A stretch of 42,218 nt of DNA from a virus. Within the stretch, counting starts at the first letter, position 1. Every line of letters begins with the position of its first letter. Where the stretch lies: the IMG/VR virus record IMGVR_UViG_3300038701_000560, positions 1 to 42,218 of that record. One strand, given 5' to 3'. The position numbers were made by a program, and so were the translations under genes. Positions 3,316-32,827 of this stretch are shown piece by piece. The notes beneath the pieces are model-generated. The model did not search any database. It was not told the origin of the DNA and was given only the letters and a program-made list of their open reading frames with translations.

Positions 3316-5064
3316 ATGACACAAAAAGTTGGCGGTATTGAGTTTGATGTTGATGTAGATGCTAGCGGCGTTAAATCCGCTAGCTCTACTGTGCAAGCTG
3401 ACCTAAAAAATGTTGAATCCTCGTTTAATAAAGTAGACTCATCCACAAAAAAATTCAATAAAACGGCAATCAAAGCAGGTAAAAGTTTAGGTGGTGTTGG
3501 TCGCAATGCTGGCATGGCTGGCATACAGATTCAGCAATTTGTCGGACAGATTCAAGGCGGTCAATCCGCCTTGCTTGCGCTATCTCAACAGGGCGCTGAC
3601 TTAGGTTTTGTGCTTGGTCGCGCTGGATTGGGTGCGGCTGTCGGTATTGCTGCTACTGCATTAAGCTTCTTAATACCAGCACTAACTGGCTCAGGCTCAG
3701 AAGTTTCAGAGTTAAAAGATAGAATCAAAGAGCTTGGCGAAGAAATAAAGCTTACAACCAATCAAATTAGATTCCTCGCAGACGAAAATGACACATCAAT
3801 GAATGATATGTCAAAGGCTAATATTGAATTAGCCGATAAACTAAAAAATGCGCGCGAAGAATTAGAAAAAATGCAGACTGCTGGGACTGGTTTAGACTCA
3901 GGTCAATTTGCAATACCTCGCAGCGCAGAGGAAAACCAAAAGCGATACGCAGTAGCTATCGAAGAGACTAGAAAGCGAATAAACGCGCTCAGCACAGAAA
4001 TAGACATTAACAATCAAGAGATGCTAAAGCTCAGTCGTGAGACTGCTGGACTAGGAAAAGAAACCGAAGAGACAGAGAAGAATACAAAAGATTACACGAC
4101 AGCGCTGCAAGCCCAAGTAATAGCACTTGAATCAGGCGCAAAGGCTGCTGAGGTTTATGCCGCAGCAGAGGCGGCAGTTGCTAACGGAACAACCGAACAA
4201 CTACCGCAAATCATTGAGCTAATAAACCGTAAGTATGAATTAAAAGCAGCACAAGAGCAGGCTGCGCAAGCTGCTAGAAATGAAGCGGCAGCAATGCGCG
4301 AGCAAGAATCAGAATATCAAAAATTCTTAGCGGCTCTTGAGCAAGGCGAAGCAGAAAAGCTGGCAAGAGAAGAGGGCGCAACTAATACCCTTGACGCATT
4401 CAGGCAAAGCCTTATGTCTGAGGAGCAGTTACGCGCAGAGGCTTACCAGCGCGAGCTTGAGCAGTTCAGGGAAGCGGCAGAAATTCTAGGTATTAGTAAA
4501 GATGAAGTGCGCGAGCTTGAAAAACAAAAAGCAAAACAGCACGCTGACGAATTGCTAGATATAGAAAAAAGAAGGGCTGACGCAGAAAAAGCCATTGAGC
4601 AGAAGAAATTCAAAGATAAACTAAATGTAGCATCTTCAATGTTTGGCAATCTGTCTAGTCTGATGAACACTGAAAGTAAAAAAATGTTCGAGATTGGCAA
4701 GGCCGCCGCTACTGCTGGCGCAATTGTCGACGGTATTGCAGCAGTGCAAGGAGCTTACAAGGTGGGCTCAAAAATAGGTGGCCCGCCATTAGGTGCGGCA
4801 TTTGCGGCGACAGCGGCGGCTGCGACGCTAGCTAACATTAAACAGATTCAATCCACCCAATTCGGCAGCGCAGGCAGTGGACAGTCATTCCAGGGTGGTC
4901 AAGTTGTCAACAACGTATCAAGCCAGCAATCACAGCCACAACAACGAAACGTATCCATAGCTCTAACAGGCTCAAGCTTTACAGGCGGCGATATACGCAC
5001 GCTAATCGGGCAAATTAACGAAGAATTAGGTGACGGCGTAACGCTTAACACCACAGGAGGCTAA
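3316..5064 (+). CDS. Tail tape measure protein
   Basis: 582 residues, short for a tape measure. Residues about 65-123 contain the family-typical IQIQQFVGQIQGGQSALLALSQQGADLGFVLG block leading into a hydrophobic segment (about 96-123). The middle (about 130-450) is long, charged and coiled-coil, rich in Glu/Lys/Ala. A second Ala/Gly-rich hydrophobic region lies at about 463-513. It sets tail length and may help DNA entry. It begins one base after the chaperone fusion stops. Confidence 0.88.
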   Translation: MTQKVGGIEFDVDVDASGVKSASSTVQADLKNVESSFNKVDSSTKKFNKTAIKAGKSLGGVGRNAGMAGIQIQQFVGQIQGGQSALLALSQQGADLGFVLGRAGLGAAVGIAATALSFLIPALTGSGSEVSELKDRIKELGEEIKLTTNQIRFLADENDTSMNDMSKANIELADKLKNAREELEKMQTAGTGLDSGQFAIPRSAEENQKRYAVAIEETRKRINALSTEIDINNQEMLKLSRETAGLGKETEETEKNTKDYTTALQAQVIALESGAKAAEVYAAAEAAVANGTTEQLPQIIELINRKYELKAAQEQAAQAARNEAAAMREQESEYQKFLAALEQGEAEKLAREEGATNTLDAFRQSLMSEEQLRAEAYQRELEQFREAAEILGISKDEVRELEKQKAKQHADELLDIEKRRADAEKAIEQKKFKDKLNVASSMFGNLSSLMNTESKKMFEIGKAAATAGAIVDGIAAVQGAYKVGSKIGGPPLGAAFAATAAAATLANIKQIQSTQFGSAGSGQSFQGGQVVNNVSSQQSQPQQRNVSIALTGSSFTGGDIRTLIGQINEELGDGVTLNTTGG

Positions 5065-5067
5065 ACC

Positions 5068-5199
5068 ATGTCATTTACAGCACAATCAAAAGCAACTGTA
5101 CCATCACCAACCACAAAACCTGTAGAGGAAAAGGCGTCCGTACCTACGCCCACAGCTAGAACGGCAGAAGATAAAGCACCAATTCCTGCGCCGGAGTGA
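5068..5199 (+). CDS. 43-residue protein made of 14-residue Pro/Lys repeats
   Basis: An ATG at 5068 follows a strong SD (CAGGAGG). The protein is almost wholly repeat: a partial unit (TAQSKATVPS), then PTTKPVEEKASVPT and PTARTAEDKAPIPA. These match the 14-residue units in the N-terminus of the next gene, although the two are in different frames and separated by 11 bases. It may be a real stalk/linker peptide or a relic of repeat-mediated rearrangement. Function unknown. Confidence 0.6.
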   Translation: MSFTAQSKATVPSPTTKPVEEKASVPTPTARTAEDKAPIPAPE

Positions 5200-5210
5200 T
5201 AGGATAAACA

Positions 5211-6473
5211 ATGAGCAGACACGATACAGAAAATCCATCGGTTATTAATGACCCGAGCGAATTAACGCCTGAAAATATAGCGGACATCAGTGGCCCTGAT
5301 GATTTTCTAGCTCGCCCATCTGGTAATATTGACGACCCAAACGAGTTAAATGCACTATCTCAGGCAAGCATTGACAGCCCAGACTCCGCAAGCGCTAGGC
5401 CCGCAACTGCCACCGCCGCACCAACTGCCAAATCAGCCGAAAATAAAACTGCGGTAACTATACCAGTTAACAAGACAGTACAAAGCAAAGCAATAATAGG
5501 TTTGCCACTTGCGAAAACGGCGCAGATAAAGCCCGTTGTCGACTCTCCAGAAGATATCACAGCAGAGAATAAGGTGGTGACTGGGCTTCCCTCTAGCGCT
5601 GATGCGATTGCTAAGGCTGTTACACCTGCGCCTGTCAACAAGGCAGCGCAACCCGCAACTCCAGCAGGATTGCCAGTAACGCTAACGCCTAGCGCTGGCG
5701 TGCCGTTATTGCCACCTTTCCCGCTCAATCATGCAAGGGTGCTGTATAATAACTTGCTCGAGGGGTCGACAGTTACATCGTCTACAGGTGAAAACCCAGA
5801 GTATACGCTAGTTCCGAATACAGCTAATAAGTGGAATTTTGAAACAACTGGCTGGGTTAAATTTGTTTTGGATGAGTCGAAACAAATAGACACGATCTGC
5901 ATTGGTGCTCAATCAATGTCAAATAACGGCTACTCTGTTCAACCATTTTATAGAACATCGGAGGGCGGCACTTTAGTTGCTTTCTCAGCAGCGAGAGTTG
6001 TGACAACAAGTAACGCAGTCATGTTTCATCTTCTAGAGCCGATTAATGCTGCGGTTATAGAAATCTACACGACAGAGGGTTTCGGCGCTGGAGATATTGG
6101 ATTTATATCCGCTGGGATAGCACTGCAAATGCAAAGACCTTTCTTTAACGGGCATGTACCAATCACCGATGGAGATGTAACGCAGTATTATAGCAATCGA
6201 ACGGAAAGCGGTGAGATTATTGGGCAGCAAATAAGGCGACAGGGCTATGAGACTAGCGCGTCTTGGCAGAATATAGATGACACATGGTATCGCACATACT
6301 TTGCGCCATTTAAGCAGGCGGCAAAGCTTAGGCCGTTTTTCTTTGCGTGGAATCTGCTTGAGTACCCTGACGATGTGGGGTTATGCCGTATATCAGAGGA
6401 TGTTAGCGCCCCCATGCAAAACGGTACGCGCACTAAGCGCAGCATCAGCATGAATTTATTGGGTGCTGGCTAA
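5211..6473 (+). CDS. Tail-tip protein with 14-residue repeat stalk and distal-tail-like C-terminus
   Basis: 420 residues. Residues 15-154 are ten consecutive 14-residue units each starting with Pro; the first four are degenerate and acidic, the last six follow P-x-x-K-T-A-x-x-K-x-V-V-x-x. Residues about 165-420 form a globular domain (FPLNHARVLYNNLLEGSTV... to SISMNLLGAG) that looks beta-sandwich-like. Gene order (after tape measure, before hub) suggests a distal tail/baseplate component. It overlaps the hub gene start (TAATG). The repeat stalk is unusual for a distal tail protein. Confidence 0.65.
   Translation: MSRHDTENPSVINDPSELTPENIADISGPDDFLARPSGNIDDPNELNALSQASIDSPDSASARPATATAAPTAKSAENKTAVTIPVNKTVQSKAIIGLPLAKTAQIKPVVDSPEDITAENKVVTGLPSSADAIAKAVTPAPVNKAAQPATPAGLPVTLTPSAGVPLLPPFPLNHARVLYNNLLEGSTVTSSTGENPEYTLVPNTANKWNFETTGWVKFVLDESKQIDTICIGAQSMSNNGYSVQPFYRTSEGGTLVAFSAARVVTTSNAVMFHLLEPINAAVIEIYTTEGFGAGDIGFISAGIALQMQRPFFNGHVPITDGDVTQYYSNRTESGEIIGQQIRRQGYETSASWQNIDDTWYRTYFAPFKQAAKLRPFFFAWNLLEYPDDVGLCRISEDVSAPMQNGTRTKRSISMNLLGAG
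5253..5672 (+). repeat. Ten tandem 42-bp units coding 14-residue repeats
   Basis: Ten in-frame 42-base units encode residues 15-154 of the tail-tip protein, each beginning with a Pro codon. Units 5-10 (5421-5672) are the best conserved at the protein level. The DNA copies are diverged, so this is an old amplification rather than a recent microsatellite. Confidence 0.85.
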
Positions 6474-8683
6474 TGGCTTACGCTAACGAAAAAAAGAAGT
6501 ACAGCAAAGAGCACTTATGGTATGTCGAAATTGAGGTTGACGGTACGACTCATAGATTTTGTGAGAATCGCTCGCCGTTGCCTGCTGGACTTTCCGCCAT
6601 TCCATCCTTGCAGTCTGTGCGCGTCAATCCTGCTGAGATTAATTTAGAGGGTGGCATCGGCGTGCGTGCCAAGTGCAGCATTTCATTGATGGAGTCAGAT
6701 GACTATACAGAATGGGGCACGGTTTCTGCTCCTGTGCGCTTCTGGTCGCGGTGGCGTGCTGAGAATCCATATTATTTAGGCGAGCGAATCAGTGTTTTTA
6801 GTGGCTACATCGTCAACGATACCTTTGATGCAAGCAACTTCACTAAGCGTGATTATATCATTGAGTCATTTGGTCAGCGAGGTTCGGGCGTATCGATTAC
6901 AGGTAAAGACCCGTTAAAACTTGCAAGCAATGACAGAGCGAAAGCGCCTAGAGAGTCGCGCGGCTCACTTAATGCAGACATAACAGACGTGACAACCACA
7001 TTTACTTTGCAGCCTGCTGGGATAGGAAACTCTGAGTATCCTGCAACTAATGGCATTGTGCGCATCGGTGACGAGGTGATGCTGTACACTACGCGCACTA
7101 ATGACATTATCAGCGGGTTGACGCGTGGCTATTACAATACAGATATTAGCGAGCACAGCGAAAACGACACGGTGCAGTTGTGCCTTGAGTATGATGCCAT
7201 GACCCCATCAGAGATTGATTACGACTTGCTGGTTAATTATGCAAACGTTGACACTAGCTACATAAATCAGGCTGAGTGGGATGCAAACAGCGCTAACGCA
7301 TTTATACCAACATACAGCGCACTAATCACCGAGCCGACAGGTGTGCAGGAATTATTAAAAGAGTTCGCACAGTCTGCGCCTCATTATTTATACTGGGATG
7401 AGCGCGTCAACCAGATACGGTTCAACGCATTACGTCCACCCCCAACAGATGCTGTTACATTGAATTATCAGAGTAATTTTATCGAGGGCAGCACAGCGGT
7501 TAAGGACATGCAGGATATGCGTGTATCGACCGTCATCTGTAATTATGGAATCATTAATCCAACTAAAGACTTAGATGAGTCAAGCAACTACCGCGCATCA
7601 TATGTGCGCGAGGATAGCGACAGCGTGACAAATTACGGTCAACGGGCTTACAAGAAAATTAATAGCCGATGGATAACAAGCGACAATAAAACCGCTGCGG
7701 TGTTAATGTCTGCTAGGGTGGGTCGTAGGTTTTCGGAAGCTCCGAGGATGCTATCGTTTGAGGTTGATGCAAAAGACTCTGACATATGGACGGGTGATAG
7801 TGTCAAATGTCAGACCGATTTAATTGAGCAGGCAGGCGGTGGCTTTCCAAGTTTGTTTTATCAGATATTGACGGCTGGAGAGTCGCAGAACTTCAATTAT
7901 ACGGCACTAGAGCACACTTACGGCGAAGCGGTGCCTGGCGATGAAGATGTTGAAGACCCAAATGTTAGGCTTGTCTATATATCTGGAGAGCAAGACCAGT
8001 TAAAAGGTGGTGGGGCAACTGCTCGAACTTTGCGCGATATTTTCGATGAAGTTTACGGCTCACCAGTTATAGATAACGCATGGGATATTAGATTTATATT
8101 TGAATCAAATGCGGTTGCTGGAAGCTCTGACAATGCGGCTTACGCGATTGACACAGGTGCATGGCCTGCAACGCTTACTGACCCTATCCTAATACAAAAC
8201 AATGGATTGATTGTTGGTAATGGTGGAGACGGCGCTGACGTTGACGGTACTGCACAAGATGGTGGGCCAGCGATTATACTGAATGCTGATATTCGTCTTG
8301 ATAACCTCAATATTATCGGAGGCGGTGGCGGTGGCGGTGGTTACTCTATCGGATTCGGAACTTACGAAGCTAGGGCGGCTGGTGGTGGTGGTGCAGGGTT
8401 TAGCAATGGTATCGCTGGCACGGGAACTAGCGCAAGCGGTGCTCCTCCACCTTTCACAGTAACCGAGGCTCAAGACGGAACAAACACAGCCGGAGGCGAG
8501 GGCGCTTTTGTTAGAATCAACGCATTCCCTGAACCGTCAATAGCAAGGGGTGGCGATGGAGGTGATTTGGGGCAGAATGGTCAAGGGGGAACAAACCTTG
8601 GGCTTGCTGGTAAAGCTATCGAATTAAACGGATTTACTGTAACATATATAGAAACTGGAACAATACTTGGAGTGGTCTCATAA
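6473..8683 (+). CDS. Tail hub/tip protein with C-terminal polyglycine adhesin domain
   Basis: 736 residues. Residues about 1-490 form a hub-like region with substructure typical of siphovirus tail-tip proteins (GYIVNDTFDASNFTKRDYIIE; EFAQSAPHYLYWDE). Residues about 575-736 are glycine-rich: NNGLIVGNGGDGAD, a run of eight glycines, AGGGGAGFSNG, RGGDGGDLGQNGQGG and a terminal AGKAIELNGFTVTYIETGTI. This resembles the polyglycine-II sandwich of T-even gp38 adhesins and other tail-tip receptor-binding domains. I infer it carries host recognition at its C-terminus. It overlaps both neighbours by TAATG-type junctions. Confidence 0.75.
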   Translation: MAYANEKKKYSKEHLWYVEIEVDGTTHRFCENRSPLPAGLSAIPSLQSVRVNPAEINLEGGIGVRAKCSISLMESDDYTEWGTVSAPVRFWSRWRAENPYYLGERISVFSGYIVNDTFDASNFTKRDYIIESFGQRGSGVSITGKDPLKLASNDRAKAPRESRGSLNADITDVTTTFTLQPAGIGNSEYPATNGIVRIGDEVMLYTTRTNDIISGLTRGYYNTDISEHSENDTVQLCLEYDAMTPSEIDYDLLVNYANVDTSYINQAEWDANSANAFIPTYSALITEPTGVQELLKEFAQSAPHYLYWDERVNQIRFNALRPPPTDAVTLNYQSNFIEGSTAVKDMQDMRVSTVICNYGIINPTKDLDESSNYRASYVREDSDSVTNYGQRAYKKINSRWITSDNKTAAVLMSARVGRRFSEAPRMLSFEVDAKDSDIWTGDSVKCQTDLIEQAGGGFPSLFYQILTAGESQNFNYTALEHTYGEAVPGDEDVEDPNVRLVYISGEQDQLKGGGATARTLRDIFDEVYGSPVIDNAWDIRFIFESNAVAGSSDNAAYAIDTGAWPATLTDPILIQNNGLIVGNGGDGADVDGTAQDGGPAIILNADIRLDNLNIIGGGGGGGGYSIGFGTYEARAAGGGGAGFSNGIAGTGTSASGAPPPFTVTEAQDGTNTAGGEGAFVRINAFPEPSIARGGDGGDLGQNGQGGTNLGLAGKAIELNGFTVTYIETGTILGVVS

Positions 8684-9048
8684 TGGCTTGCGTAGAATTT
8701 GGAAGCTTATGCTTCACTGCTGGAGATGACATAGTTGTTGATTGGCAATATCTGGATGCTGATGATAATCCAGTTGATTTGACTGGTGCTACAATCACAT
8801 GGCAGCTATTAAACTCAATAACCGATAACACTGCTGTCATAACCATGTCAGGAGGAATAACCAATGCGGCGAATGGGTCTGGTCGGTGGACTTTGACCGA
8901 TGTACAAAGTCAATCTTTATTGCCTATTGGGAGTGAATCATCATCAATTGAGTTCATTTCAAAGATTCGTATTGAATTTTCAGACGGAACTAGAAAATCT
9001 GTGGCAGGAATAAATTTAACCATCAATCAAGGTGGGGTTAGGCCATGA
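8683..9048 (+). CDS. Ig-like/baseplate accessory protein
   Basis: 121 residues, all-beta. The motif of a GDDIVVDWQYLDADDNPVDLTGATITWQL strand-turn-strand resembles the N-terminal domain of BppU-like and other phage Ig-fold proteins that link fibres to the baseplate. Its start overlaps the hub stop and its stop overlaps the fibre gene start (ATGA). A role in attaching the following fibres is inferred. Confidence 0.55.
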   Translation: MACVEFGSLCFTAGDDIVVDWQYLDADDNPVDLTGATITWQLLNSITDNTAVITMSGGITNAANGSGRWTLTDVQSQSLLPIGSESSSIEFISKIRIEFSDGTRKSVAGINLTINQGGVRP

Positions 9049-10694
9049 GCGGCACTTTCACATTATATGAAGGTGACAAAGGCGAGCCAGGCATTGACGG
9101 TATCGACGGTCTAGGTGTCGCTGATGTCTCACCTACAGATAACCATATCTTAAGTATTTTAAAGCCAAACAATCCAAGTGAATCAGCGGTGCTTGACGCA
9201 GATAGAAATGGACAGGCATTGTATACCGACAGGTACGGGGTTGTTAAATGGGCTAAGCCCAGGTCGAGAACAAACTATATTCCGTATTCTAACGATCTAA
9301 CCTCGTGGGATGATCCGTTTAATAGATATACGATTCTTGGCAATACGACAGACCCGTTTGGCGGCAATGATGCCCATCTAGTTCAGATTGATGTCGATAC
9401 TGATACTCTGCCAGGGTCTGGGTATGTAGTAGAAACTGAAATTCAGAATCTTTCAAAAGATGACATTATCAACGTTTCGTTTTGGGTAAAATACATAAGC
9501 GGTAACATCGGCTCGATGGATTTTAGCATAGAAGCAAATAGATTCACGGTTTCAACGCCATCATCTGAATGGGTAAGAGTCACTTATCCGACATGCGTAC
9601 CTATCGATGAGGCTGACATCACGTTCAGTTTAAACCCAAGAGGCAAGACTGGCGGCGTTGTTGCTATTTATGGAGTACAGGTTGAGAAAGGCGGGTCTGC
9701 TGGTGATTTGATTATCACAAATGGCGAACAAAGAACGGTTATAGCAGATAATTATCAATTCAGAAACGGGAAAAACGGCTCATTGCTCGAAGGTTCAAAA
9801 AAGAATTATTCTTTAAATAGCAACAACCTTTTTAAGTGGGATAAAACGAATTGCACGGTGTCACTATATAATGAGGCTGATTATTTTGGTGTGCAAAATC
9901 AGTTGGTATCAGTGGCTGTTTCTGATGTAGAGGCAACGCTAGTTGATGAAGTCGATACACTTGTTGTTGGTAATACTTACACCGTTTCATTTTATGCGCT
10001 CTTGCTGAGCGGTAGTGTTGAGTCAATATCAACTGCGTTAGGGCAGGGCGCTGCATCGGAAATGTCAGGCGCAGTAATTGAGGATTCATTTACAAGACTG
10101 ACTTGTGAGTGCGTTGCTGGTGCGTCAGACGAAATAAAAATAACAATAAATTCGCCGCCAGAAAATGCACAACTTGTTATTTGTGGGGTTCAAGTTGAGG
10201 TAGGTGATATATCCTCTTACGTTTACACATGCGGCGTATCTCAAACAAGAAGTATGGATGTAATGAGCGTACCGTATGATTACAATTTCCCATCCCCGCA
10301 ATTGCCGTTCACTTTATCGTTTAGAGTGCATGACATACTAACAAGCTCAACGAAGAAGTACATTTTCAGTAACGGTTTAACGCTAACAGATGAATTTTCG
10401 ATGTACTTTGAGGGCGTTAACTTAGTGGTCAACATGGGTGGAAACCTGACTTCTCAGGCTATGATACAATACTCAAACATAGCAGTCGTATTTACAAGCT
10501 CATCGATTAAGTTTTACGGGCAGAGGACGCTTATAAATGAGATTGCAGCTACGGCAGGTGGCTCAGTCGGTGACACTGTTTTCATCGGTTACAATGGTAC
10601 TGATGGTAGTATAAATGCAACAATTAGCCACTTTATAGCATACTCATATGGCTTGAGTCATAATGATGTTTTATATTTGCAGGGGACAGAATAA
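9045..10694 (+). CDS. Tail fibre with collagen-like linker and carbohydrate-binding-like domains
   Basis: 549 residues. Residues 10-24 are a short collagen-like stretch (GDKGEPGIDGIDGLG). Two similar beta-sandwich regions follow, each with a SFWVKY/SFYALL strand and ending in a Y/CGVQVEKG- or CGVQVEVG-type motif, reminiscent of CBM4/9-type carbohydrate-binding modules. The last about 130 residues (PFTLSFRVHDIL... IGYNGTDGSINATISHFIAYSYGLS) look like a laminin-G/concanavalin-A fold. A side fibre that binds surface glycans is the likely role. Confidence 0.65.
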   Translation: MSGTFTLYEGDKGEPGIDGIDGLGVADVSPTDNHILSILKPNNPSESAVLDADRNGQALYTDRYGVVKWAKPRSRTNYIPYSNDLTSWDDPFNRYTILGNTTDPFGGNDAHLVQIDVDTDTLPGSGYVVETEIQNLSKDDIINVSFWVKYISGNIGSMDFSIEANRFTVSTPSSEWVRVTYPTCVPIDEADITFSLNPRGKTGGVVAIYGVQVEKGGSAGDLIITNGEQRTVIADNYQFRNGKNGSLLEGSKKNYSLNSNNLFKWDKTNCTVSLYNEADYFGVQNQLVSVAVSDVEATLVDEVDTLVVGNTYTVSFYALLLSGSVESISTALGQGAASEMSGAVIEDSFTRLTCECVAGASDEIKITINSPPENAQLVICGVQVEVGDISSYVYTCGVSQTRSMDVMSVPYDYNFPSPQLPFTLSFRVHDILTSSTKKYIFSNGLTLTDEFSMYFEGVNLVVNMGGNLTSQAMIQYSNIAVVFTSSSIKFYGQRTLINEIAATAGGSVGDTVFIGYNGTDGSINATISHFIAYSYGLSHNDVLYLQGTE

Positions 10695-11446
10695 TGGCGG
10701 TTTCAGTTACAGACGATCCAGCGGTCGTAGTCATATCAAAAGATGGTCTTAAAGGTGAGCCAGGGACAAACGGTGCAAACGGCATAGGATTTAGTGCGGT
10801 AAGAAAGACAACTATCGACAATCCATTGTGTTGGCTGTACAAAAAAAATCATTTAGTGCACGTACTAAGTGAGCTTTTGACCGTGGACAGAGAAGTCGGA
10901 GGTAGTTACACTGACATATACGGTGTTTCTCAGTCAGCCGAGCCAGACGAAGCCAGAGAGGAGGTTGATGGGTGGCTGATAACAAGCGATGAAACTCACA
11001 CATTTGAGATTTACGATAACATACCGAATTTAAGTGACGGTTTTTCATGTGTGTTGCAAGTAGGGAAATACACTGGCGGCGCTGTGTCTCAGTCAATACT
11101 ATCAATACCGTCAACAAGCGGGACATTGTTTACAGTCGGAACTGACGCATCAAATCGATTTGTAGCAACTATTCGAGGTAGCGACCTGATTACATACAGT
11201 GCATCTACGATAGTTAATGCAAACGTAACAGACGAAACGGTGATTATTGTTAGCTATCTCGCTGGAGACCTTACTATATATATAGACGATGCAGAAGCTG
11301 GCTCTGTAAGCGTAGCAACAGGCGAAATCGATGATATGGATTTAAGCTCTGTGCTAACAATTAACGGCAACTTTACAGTAAACTTGGCAGGGCTGAGATT
11401 CTATGACACTGTACTGAACGCTGACGAAATAACATTTTTGAGTTGA
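10694..11446 (+). CDS. Tail fibre with collagen-like linker and LamG-like C-terminus
   Basis: 250 residues. Residues 16-32 are collagen-like (KDGLKGEPGTNGANGIG), echoing the linker of the preceding fibre. The C-terminal half (about 95-250) has the strand pattern and terminal NLAGLRFYDTVLNADEITFLS typical of LamG/concanavalin-A-like fibre domains. It overlaps the previous gene by TAATG. The similar N-termini suggest both fibres dock on the same attachment protein. Confidence 0.6.
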   Translation: MAVSVTDDPAVVVISKDGLKGEPGTNGANGIGFSAVRKTTIDNPLCWLYKKNHLVHVLSELLTVDREVGGSYTDIYGVSQSAEPDEAREEVDGWLITSDETHTFEIYDNIPNLSDGFSCVLQVGKYTGGAVSQSILSIPSTSGTLFTVGTDASNRFVATIRGSDLITYSASTIVNANVTDETVIIVSYLAGDLTIYIDDAEAGSVSVATGEIDDMDLSSVLTINGNFTVNLAGLRFYDTVLNADEITFLS

Positions 11447-29865: not shown

Positions 29866-29898
29866 GATTCACTCACGATACGAGTGCGTATTCATCTG

Positions 29899-29971
29899 AT
29901 GATTGTAGCTCAGTTGGTAGAGCGTGCCACTGATAAAGGCAGCGTCGCTGGTTCGAGTCCAGCCATTCATC
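29899..29971 (+). tRNA. tRNA-Ile (anticodon GAT)
   Basis: A cloverleaf can be drawn: acceptor ATGATTG/CATTCAT, D-arm GCTC...GAGC, anticodon loop CTGATAA, variable GCGTC and T-arm GCTGG TTCGAGT CCAGC. The acceptor has one T-T mismatch and the anticodon stem ends in an A-A mismatch. CCA is not encoded and the discriminator would be C, unusual for tRNA-Ile. The 3-prime acceptor sequence ATTCATC also occurs just upstream (29890-29896). Confidence 0.82.
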
Positions 29972-29976
29972 AGTTG

Positions 29977-31144: not shown

Positions 31145-32827
31145 ATGGCAATAACGCCAACAGATTTCACATGGGCCATTGAAGCCACTGGCACAAGCCC
31201 ATCTGCTACTAACTCAGGTCAAGTGCTACTGATTACAGAAGCTAATGTTGATGCTGATTTTTGGCTAAATGTTGCTAATGGAGGTGGCGATATTCGCGTT
31301 TGTGAAGATGCGGCAGGGTTAAACCAACTGCCTCTTCATGTAATTGATTGCGACACTGTATCGGAAACGCTTAGGTTAAGAACTAGAAAGCCAGCGTATG
31401 CTTCTGCCGATAGAAAATTTTATATATTCAGCAAAAATGGCTCTGATTCACAACCCGCTGCAAGTTCCACATTCGGAAGCCAAAACGTCTATCAAGATTA
31501 CTACTTTTGGCTAACACTCGACAGCACTACGGTAACAGACTCGGCTGGCAATTTATCACCAACAACAAGCGGAATATCCGCTACTAGATCAGGTGTTTTT
31601 AACGGAACAGCATTAGATTTTAATGGCACTGGTTATATTGATTTAGGCGCATCAAGCCCTATTCCATCAAAACCTTACACCATGCAGGCGCTCATATATT
31701 CAGATGCAAATCCAAGTGGCAATAACTGGATAATGGGTACGGATCGTTTGCAGGATTTTGCAGGTGGTCACGGAATGTGGGCTGACAATGCTGGCGCTGT
31801 TACGTCAAACATGATAAGCGCAGATGATAATATACCAACTGCGCCAAGAGTTGAAACTCCAGATAACTCAATACTTGGAGGAAACCCATATCTTGTATCA
31901 TTCGGTGCTGATAGCGTAACAAGTGACTTTTTTGCAAAAATAAACACATCAGCAAAGGTTATTGAGGCATCTGCATCCTCTCACGTTGTCGCCTCTGGAA
32001 GATTTAGAATAGGGAATAATTCTGGATTCCCCATAGGTTTTAATGGTGCCATACAAGACGCAAGGGTTAGGGATGAGTACCTACCTGATAGTCACTTACT
32101 GATAGAGCACGCTAACGAATCCGACCCAGCCACATTCTGGACAATGGGAACGAGTTATGACCCTAGTGCGGGTGGTGGATACTCAATAACGCTAGACTCT
32201 GGTTCGTATACATACACAGGAGGTGAGATACAGTTATCAGTTAATAGAAAGTTAGCAATTGATGCTGGCCTTTATTCATACACAGGTAACAATGTTCAAG
32301 TTTCGGTTAGTCGAAGTATAACACTTGACTCTGGTTCGTATTCATACGATGGATTTGATTCTGCTTTATCTGCTCATAGAAAAATCACGATTGATGCTGG
32401 CGAATACGTCTACACTGGTAATGCGGTAACGCTTACATACACGCCGTCAGGCGGGGGGACATACTCAATAACTCTTGAAGCTGGCGCATATGTATACACC
32501 GGTCAGTCAGTTAATCTTGCTGCAAATAGAGCGTTATCGTTAAGCTCTGGCGCATATCTGTATCAAGGGCAATCTGTACAGCTATCGGCGCACAGGTCAA
32601 TAAGCATCGAGGGTGGCGCATACGTTGTAACTGGGAATTCTGTTCAGCTATCAGCACACAGGGCTATCACACTTGAAGCTGGCGCATATGAATACACTGG
32701 TTTCCCAGTGACACTAACCTATTCTGGCGAGATAATTGCACTGATAAGCGGTTATAGAGTAAACTATAAACAAGATGACGTGTCCGCAGGATACGAAGAC
32801 GACTACATACAAGCGGAGTTCATTTAA
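31145..32827 (+). CDS. LamG-like structural/fibre protein with eight 22-residue beta repeats
   Basis: 560 residues. Residues about 115-330 form a laminin-G/concanavalin-A-like domain (LDFNGTGYIDLGASSPIP... FNGAIQDARVRDEYLP). Residues about 348-528 hold eight repeats of the type ITLDSGSYTYTGxxVQLSVNRK in two blocks of four separated by TPSGGGTYS. Similar Gly-Tyr beta repeats are seen in phage fibre or decoration proteins. A surface-binding role is inferred. It lies just upstream of terminase, a location often used for fibre or decoration genes. Confidence 0.65.
   Translation: MAITPTDFTWAIEATGTSPSATNSGQVLLITEANVDADFWLNVANGGGDIRVCEDAAGLNQLPLHVIDCDTVSETLRLRTRKPAYASADRKFYIFSKNGSDSQPAASSTFGSQNVYQDYYFWLTLDSTTVTDSAGNLSPTTSGISATRSGVFNGTALDFNGTGYIDLGASSPIPSKPYTMQALIYSDANPSGNNWIMGTDRLQDFAGGHGMWADNAGAVTSNMISADDNIPTAPRVETPDNSILGGNPYLVSFGADSVTSDFFAKINTSAKVIEASASSHVVASGRFRIGNNSGFPIGFNGAIQDARVRDEYLPDSHLLIEHANESDPATFWTMGTSYDPSAGGGYSITLDSGSYTYTGGEIQLSVNRKLAIDAGLYSYTGNNVQVSVSRSITLDSGSYSYDGFDSALSAHRKITIDAGEYVYTGNAVTLTYTPSGGGTYSITLEAGAYVYTGQSVNLAANRALSLSSGAYLYQGQSVQLSAHRSISIEGGAYVVTGNSVQLSAHRAITLEAGAYEYTGFPVTLTYSGEIIALISGYRVNYKQDDVSAGYEDDYIQAEFI
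32186..32730 (+). repeat. Eight 66-bp units coding 22-residue beta repeats
   Basis: Two arrays of four units, with consensus [IL]-[TS]-[LI]-[DE]-[SA]-G-x-Y-x-Y-T-G and VQLSAHR. The DNA copies are diverged, but the protein pattern is strict. Confidence 0.8.

Follow-up and report, generated by a model that had tools for sequence, protein, structure and literature searches.

Two adjacent genes with a 14-residue period

The window, meaning the whole stretch of DNA analysed here, is a virus record of 42,218 bases from a marine phage. The order of its tail-tip genes (tape measure, tip protein, hub) is identical in the window and in its relatives, and the features that concern us are listed below.

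3316..5064, + strand: tape-measure protein, 582 aa (phrog_9483, E=3e-67)
5068..5199, + strand: small gene, 43 aa, a putative headless stalk (open reading frame with AGGAGG at 5055-5060; period 14, z=6.4)
5211..6473, + strand: tail-tip protein, 420 aa, an N-terminal 14-residue array followed by a globular part (open reading frame; phrog_11633)
5241..5717, + strand: array of 14-residue units, residues 11-169 of the tip protein, with 12 in-phase prolines (autocorrelation; AlphaFold2 pLDDT 31-36)
5715..6470, + strand: globular part, residues 169-420, a predicted CBM32-like/F5-8C galactose-binding fold and then a second conserved domain (AlphaFold2, Foldseek)
6473..8683, + strand: hub/adhesin protein, 736 aa, with a C-terminal Gp38-type adhesin domain (phrog_11439, E=6e-286; PF05268, 34.8 bits, cut-off 25)
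9045..11446, + strand: two carbohydrate-binding-type tail proteins, 549 and 250 aa (CBM_4_9, 28.7 bits, cut-off 25.9; LamG_3, 22.9 bits, below the cut-off of 27.6)

The tape-measure gene adjoins the 43-residue gene, its stop lying 3 nt ahead, and the hub gene adjoins the 420-residue gene on the downstream side. The 549- and 250-residue proteins each start with a short collagen-like KGEPG motif and are without a 14-residue array. Elsewhere in the window there is a tRNA-Ile (GAT) gene at 29898-29972.

In residues 1-172 of the large protein, autocorrelation is highest at lags 14 (z=9.3) and 28 (z=8.2), whereas 2000 shuffles never exceed z=4.7 at any lag; for the 43-residue protein, too, lag 14 stands out (z=6.4, with 4.9 the highest shuffled value). 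The same measure reveals no periodicity in the globular part of the 420-residue protein. Twelve prolines of the large protein are exactly in phase (residues 15, 29, and so on to 169), and the small protein consists of a 13-residue head and then about 2 2/3 units, with register prolines at residues 14, 28 and 42. The original prediction was of a repeat common to two adjacent genes in different frames (5068-5199 and 5211-6473), with about 2.7 units in the smaller one, and both reading frames and the small-gene count are as it claimed. Its ten P-x-x-K-T-A units in the tip protein are right as to the repeat but not the count; there are 11-12 units, starting before the P-x-x-K-T-A block and spanning residues ~11-169, and the K-T-A motif fits the middle units alone. 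Only one other open reading frame in all 42 kb has comparable periodicity, a 560-residue frame at 31145-32827 with a 22-residue period toward its C-terminus (z=10.7).

At the DNA level, Tandem Repeats Finder reports no tandem repeat in the window, and adjacent units have 40% nucleotide and 26% residue identity. At residues common to two units, codons agree at a frequency of 0.35, compared with 0.33 expected from codon usage. Codon identity at this level indicates that the units are old. All 12 prolines have nonetheless stayed in register, undisturbed by insertions or deletions, and this is our main argument that the array adopts a regular structure. Judged from the sequence, a fixed period fits a regular structure better than a random linker.

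The globular part is modelled confidently by AlphaFold2 (residues 169-420, pLDDT mostly 80-96), and for its first half Foldseek ranks CBM32 modules highest in the PDB (E from 1e-7 to 1e-5, probability 1.00; isolated modules reach a TM by target of 0.6-0.77). This part is predicted to have a galactose-binding beta-sandwich fold; what the Foldseek match shows is a CBM-like fold, and the tip protein may be a sugar-binding one. The phrog_11633 profile matches residues 163-419 (E=9.8e-79, profile positions 13-269 of 270), and phage H105/1 has a homologue of the globular domain. Pfam recognises F5/8 type C in one relative (L071, 36.3 bits, cut-off 27.8) and gives no match at E<0.1 for the window protein, and a PDB sequence search with the globular profile gave no chain match at E<0.1. 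A position after the tape measure is compatible with a distal tail protein (Dit), and there is none among the 50 PDB fold matches listed.

For the array, AlphaFold predicts no fold as a monomer in two proteins, that of the window and that of L041, which has the most regular array (pLDDT 24-36 for most of the array). The result disfavours a solenoid formed by one chain and leaves an oligomeric fibre unaffected. A PDB sequence search with the L041 array gave no match below E=0.38; a Fiber-1 match at that value is not a match to the repeat and was discarded. Neither Pfam nor PHROGs contains a family for the 14-residue repeat. The literature searched yielded nothing relevant on 14-residue tail repeats, which other collections could still describe, and no virion proteomics or structure for any array-bearing member.

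The array among relatives

The globular family was traced in phage records and viral contigs to about 110 distinct loci. Most are without an array, having an N-terminus of about 6-19 residues and a start codon that usually overlaps the tape-measure stop, and the array is not a defining trait of the phrog_11633 tail-tip family. Arrays are found in one large clade that includes the window, with a single one outside it (L006), and a scan of genome contigs added five distant relatives only, all without an array. Cultured carriers are Alteromonas phage XX1924, Idiomarinaceae phage 1N2-2, Pseudoalteromonas phages PS_L5 and PHS3, Oceanospirillum phage GJ44 and Aeromonas phage phiA034.

In tip proteins the array lies between a short N-terminal head and the CBM32-like/F5-8C domain, and the window large protein is without the strand-like head found in most relatives. 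Random linkers in this position, named in advance as evidence against a regular rod, are not what relatives show: all arrays that run on unbroken for about four units or more have a best period of 14 or 28, with 2-20 units in total. Among 2177 reading frames from the first 143 loci, 23 of the 25 that are strongly periodic have a period of 14 or 28, several of these 23 being frames that overlap on one array. Across the family the units follow the consensus x-[IV]-[DS]-[AT]-P-x-x-[IL]-[ST]-A-x-[AS]-x-x, in which positions 2, 5, 8 and 10 are conserved across phages; there are two hydrophobic positions per unit, and of 143 units 86% have the one proline and half the one alanine.

Array lengths are quantised. 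Measured from the first methionine, the distance to a conserved arginine in the globular part clusters modulo 14 (R=0.90, n=19), as do the lengths of the small genes (p ~4e-5), and the close relatives L004 (83 residues) and L007 (27 residues) differ by exactly four units. Since length changes come in whole units and the codons have reached saturation, it is at the protein level that the register is maintained. The fixed period that had been proposed is retained in relatives despite saturated divergence between units.

A different view is that the array is a flexible, disordered spacer rich in proline, alanine, threonine and serine, and that its period is the fossil of a past duplication of a 42-bp unit. 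The composition and the low AlphaFold confidence agree with this, as does the free variation of unit number among close relatives (55, 83 and 293 residues in L039, L042 and L041). A fossil period, however, should erode by insertions and deletions, and here 12 prolines remain in phase with synonymous sites saturated and only ~26% of residues common to adjacent units; positions 2, 5, 8 and 10 are moreover conserved between phages. Disorder with no preserved period had been named in advance as evidence against a regular array, and while the first part is matched by the AlphaFold result, the period is preserved. We regard a disordered spacer as unlikely, albeit the most serious competitor on the nature of the array itself.

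The array might alternatively be an extended strap zipped onto the outer face of the tail tube or tip, with one unit for each subunit ring. Fourteen residues in extended conformation span ~42-46 angstroms and the rise of a tail ring is ~40 angstroms, so that the exact register and the unit-to-ring length both suit such an arrangement, and arrays of at most ~20 units would not surpass the number of rings that tape-measure lengths lead one to expect. Unit number nonetheless shows no correlation with tape-measure length (Spearman -0.22, p=0.32), close relatives differ by loss of the complete array (L007 versus L004), and the same array is found under lectin-type heads and at the C-terminus of a hub-type protein in an Aeromonas phage. 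We consider a strap improbable, and the lack of correlation together with the lectin-type heads also leaves the earlier suggestion of a rod between tape measure and baseplate unsupported.

Arrays also occur in other settings. In one relative (L019/L034) a globular insert breaks into the array, and at the place of the array L071 and L100 carry extensions of other kinds, without repeats. Nine Aeromonas phages have an exact 14-residue array with the same proline placement on an unrelated tail protein, which in phiA034, a member of the Casjensviridae, forms the C-terminus of a hub-type protein (phrog_1101).

Several repeats and genes were noted at these loci. The Aeromonas phage tail proteins at L140 494-4684 and L141 374-4636 have C-terminal APYNLR..AQAEL repeats with an exact period of 14 (z 23-25), and a 178-residue protein at L099 6506-7042 has a 10-residue NKIANNAVTT-type repeat. 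In L064 (3513-3947; also in L067-L069) an extra tail-tube-type gene (Phage_tail_2, 48 bits) lies between the tape-measure region and the tip gene, and its N-terminus, MSFVISPSITP, resembles the MTFVVSPSVVV of the tip protein.

The slot after the tape measure

The position that the 43-residue gene occupies in the window is filled in two ways. In ten relatives (L035, L037, L038, L046, L053, L075, L125, L126, L134 and L145) it encodes a protein of 481-767 residues with an N-terminal 14-residue array, and in all six that were scanned (L035, L046, L053, L075, L125 and L134) a LamG/ConA-like lectin domain scores above the Pfam cut-off at the C-terminal end. The tip protein of these ten relatives is bare. 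In the other type the slot encodes a headless array peptide of 30-159 residues, and the tip protein usually bears the array. The tip protein has an array in 0 of 9 loci with an adhesin-type slot and 21 of 23 with a headless-peptide slot (Fisher p=2e-6, kinship ignored), a count that leaves out L145, which has the same adhesin-type arrangement. Headless and lectin-headed forms thus exchange in one slot.

Head length is nearly constant across array proteins: the adhesins have their first in-phase proline at residue 13-14, almost all small proteins at 14-15 and the window large protein at 15. A gene of ~140 residues usually comes next after a stalked adhesin (124-141 aa: L035 3567-3974, L046 3538-3963, L145 6106-6480); the copies in L035, L046 and L053 have no Pfam or PHROG match, and this gene is a possible candidate for an adhesin chaperone.

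The 43-residue length recurs in L013, L014 and L016, with no insertions or deletions across the four phages, and the gene is under purifying selection (dN 0.24-0.44, dS from 0.86 to saturation; dN/dS ~0.1-0.4 where dS is computable). A rival view is that the small gene is a decayed, functionless remnant of a lost stalked adhesin. It lies in the slot of the long adhesins, and the heads of the small proteins of L016 and L018 resemble adhesin heads (p=0.009 and below 0.001), the resemblance of the window head being non-significant (p=0.09). Set against this are a dN/dS well below 1 with the 43 residues kept intact, a consensus ribosome-binding site, and residues matched to the large array, and we find decay a rather improbable account.

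The match between the two arrays is specific to each phage. Units of the small and large arrays agree best within one phage, with a value of 7.8 in register and at most 2.1 in 13 shifted registers (13 phages), and none of 20,000 permutations gave as good a match. The effect persists in seven phages chosen because their synonymous sites are saturated or a codon test is lacking (p=0.0009). Composition or GC content was suspected as the cause, but the match vanishes when the register is shifted; since the match depends on register, composition cannot explain it. This pattern suggests either that the stalks touch each other or a common partner, or that, at long intervals, the small gene has arisen anew from the large one. 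The position-specific match within one phage lends indirect support to the partner-binding role in the original prediction.

Codon identity bears on the second alternative. Where the two window genes share residues it is 0.35, with 0.29 predicted by codon usage, which is near chance and does not favour the idea of the small gene as a donor for length variation. It is above chance in L042, L045, L047, L029 and L114, and older or local DNA copying between small and large genes may have occurred there; re-derivation may apply, most of all to phages with raised codon identity (L042, L045 and L047). The array is present and the small gene absent in L001, L006 and L093, so the small protein is not strictly needed.

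A putative stalk module and its known parallels

The slot exchange, the insert in L019/L034, the extensions in L071 and L100 and the Aeromonas arrays together point to a stalk or spacer role for the repeat, next to domains of carbohydrate-binding type. We favour, with somewhat better than even confidence, a model in which the 14-residue unit serves siphophage tail tips as a modular element for stalks, with a docked head, a projecting register-locked stalk, a carbohydrate-binding-type domain at its end or base, and a reach set by the number of units. A head of 10-15 residues would dock on the tail tip of the virion and be followed by k units of identical length and then, usually, by a carbohydrate-binding-type domain. 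In the window, a twelve-unit stalk would bear the CBM32-like tip protein, and the 43-residue protein would be a headless stalk, encoded at the position that a stalked lectin-type adhesin has in relatives. So exact a register implies one and the same contact for each unit, most likely inside an oligomeric fibre or where a second stalk chain packs alongside. The small protein probably co-assembles with the large stalk, which it would pack with, cap or nucleate, and reach would change by gain or loss of whole units.

A bolder version, which we offer tentatively, is that the small headless protein and the long tip array form a mixed, register-locked fibre of two genes. The short peptide would template, cap or complete the longer chain unit by unit, and phages would tune reach in whole 14-residue units and swap heads between genes.

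Stalks let phages reach their hosts, and the repeat looks like an undescribed building block for them, found also under predicted sugar-binding-type tail adhesins in relatives. If the modular stalk reading is true, it adds a portable module that combines a rigid 14-residue register under sequence drift with whole-unit variation and is common to tail-tip genes. The repeat would moreover serve as a simple sequence marker by which to find tail-tip adhesins that are annotated as 'hypothetical', and the cultured carriers make the stalk reading testable.

Adhesin stalks as such are an established kind; those known from phages are mostly trimeric coiled coils, beta-fibres or collagen-like segments, and the 14-residue repeat appears to be new among them. 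The triple beta-spiral of the adenovirus type is a trimeric fibre shaft built of short beta repeats of ~15 residues, and the array resembles such shafts in its short repeat of fixed length, conserved turn proline or glycine, variable copy number and head at one end. It differs in its period of 14, in having only two strongly hydrophobic positions per unit, and in the lack of a PDB sequence match to the L041 array.

Closer to hand are the LamG/ConA-like lectin tail proteins (phrog_5939, PF13385), since relatives with these heads have the same N-terminal array in the same slot. The small gene is like these stalked adhesins in its position after the tape measure, short head, first proline at residue 13-15 and period of 14, but it ends after 43 residues without the C-terminal lectin head, and the lectin-type domains of the window lie downstream on proteins without arrays. 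ORF32 of Oceanospirillum phage GJ44 (phrog_11633) belongs to the same globular family as the window tip protein and has the same gene position; it is described as a discoidin-domain tail protein, annotated by its discoidin-like domain only, and the repeat is not mentioned in the part of that description available to us (PMC8451122).

The nearest worked-out parallel for gene position is phage JBD30, likened here by position with no claim of kinship. Its two genes directly after the tape measure, gp47 and gp48, encode lateral tail fibre subunits that form heterodimers at the baseplate, and an N-terminal loop of the distal tail protein wraps the fibres (PMC11445458). Gp47 and gp48 are globular with similar folds, whereas the pair in the window carries 14-residue arrays.
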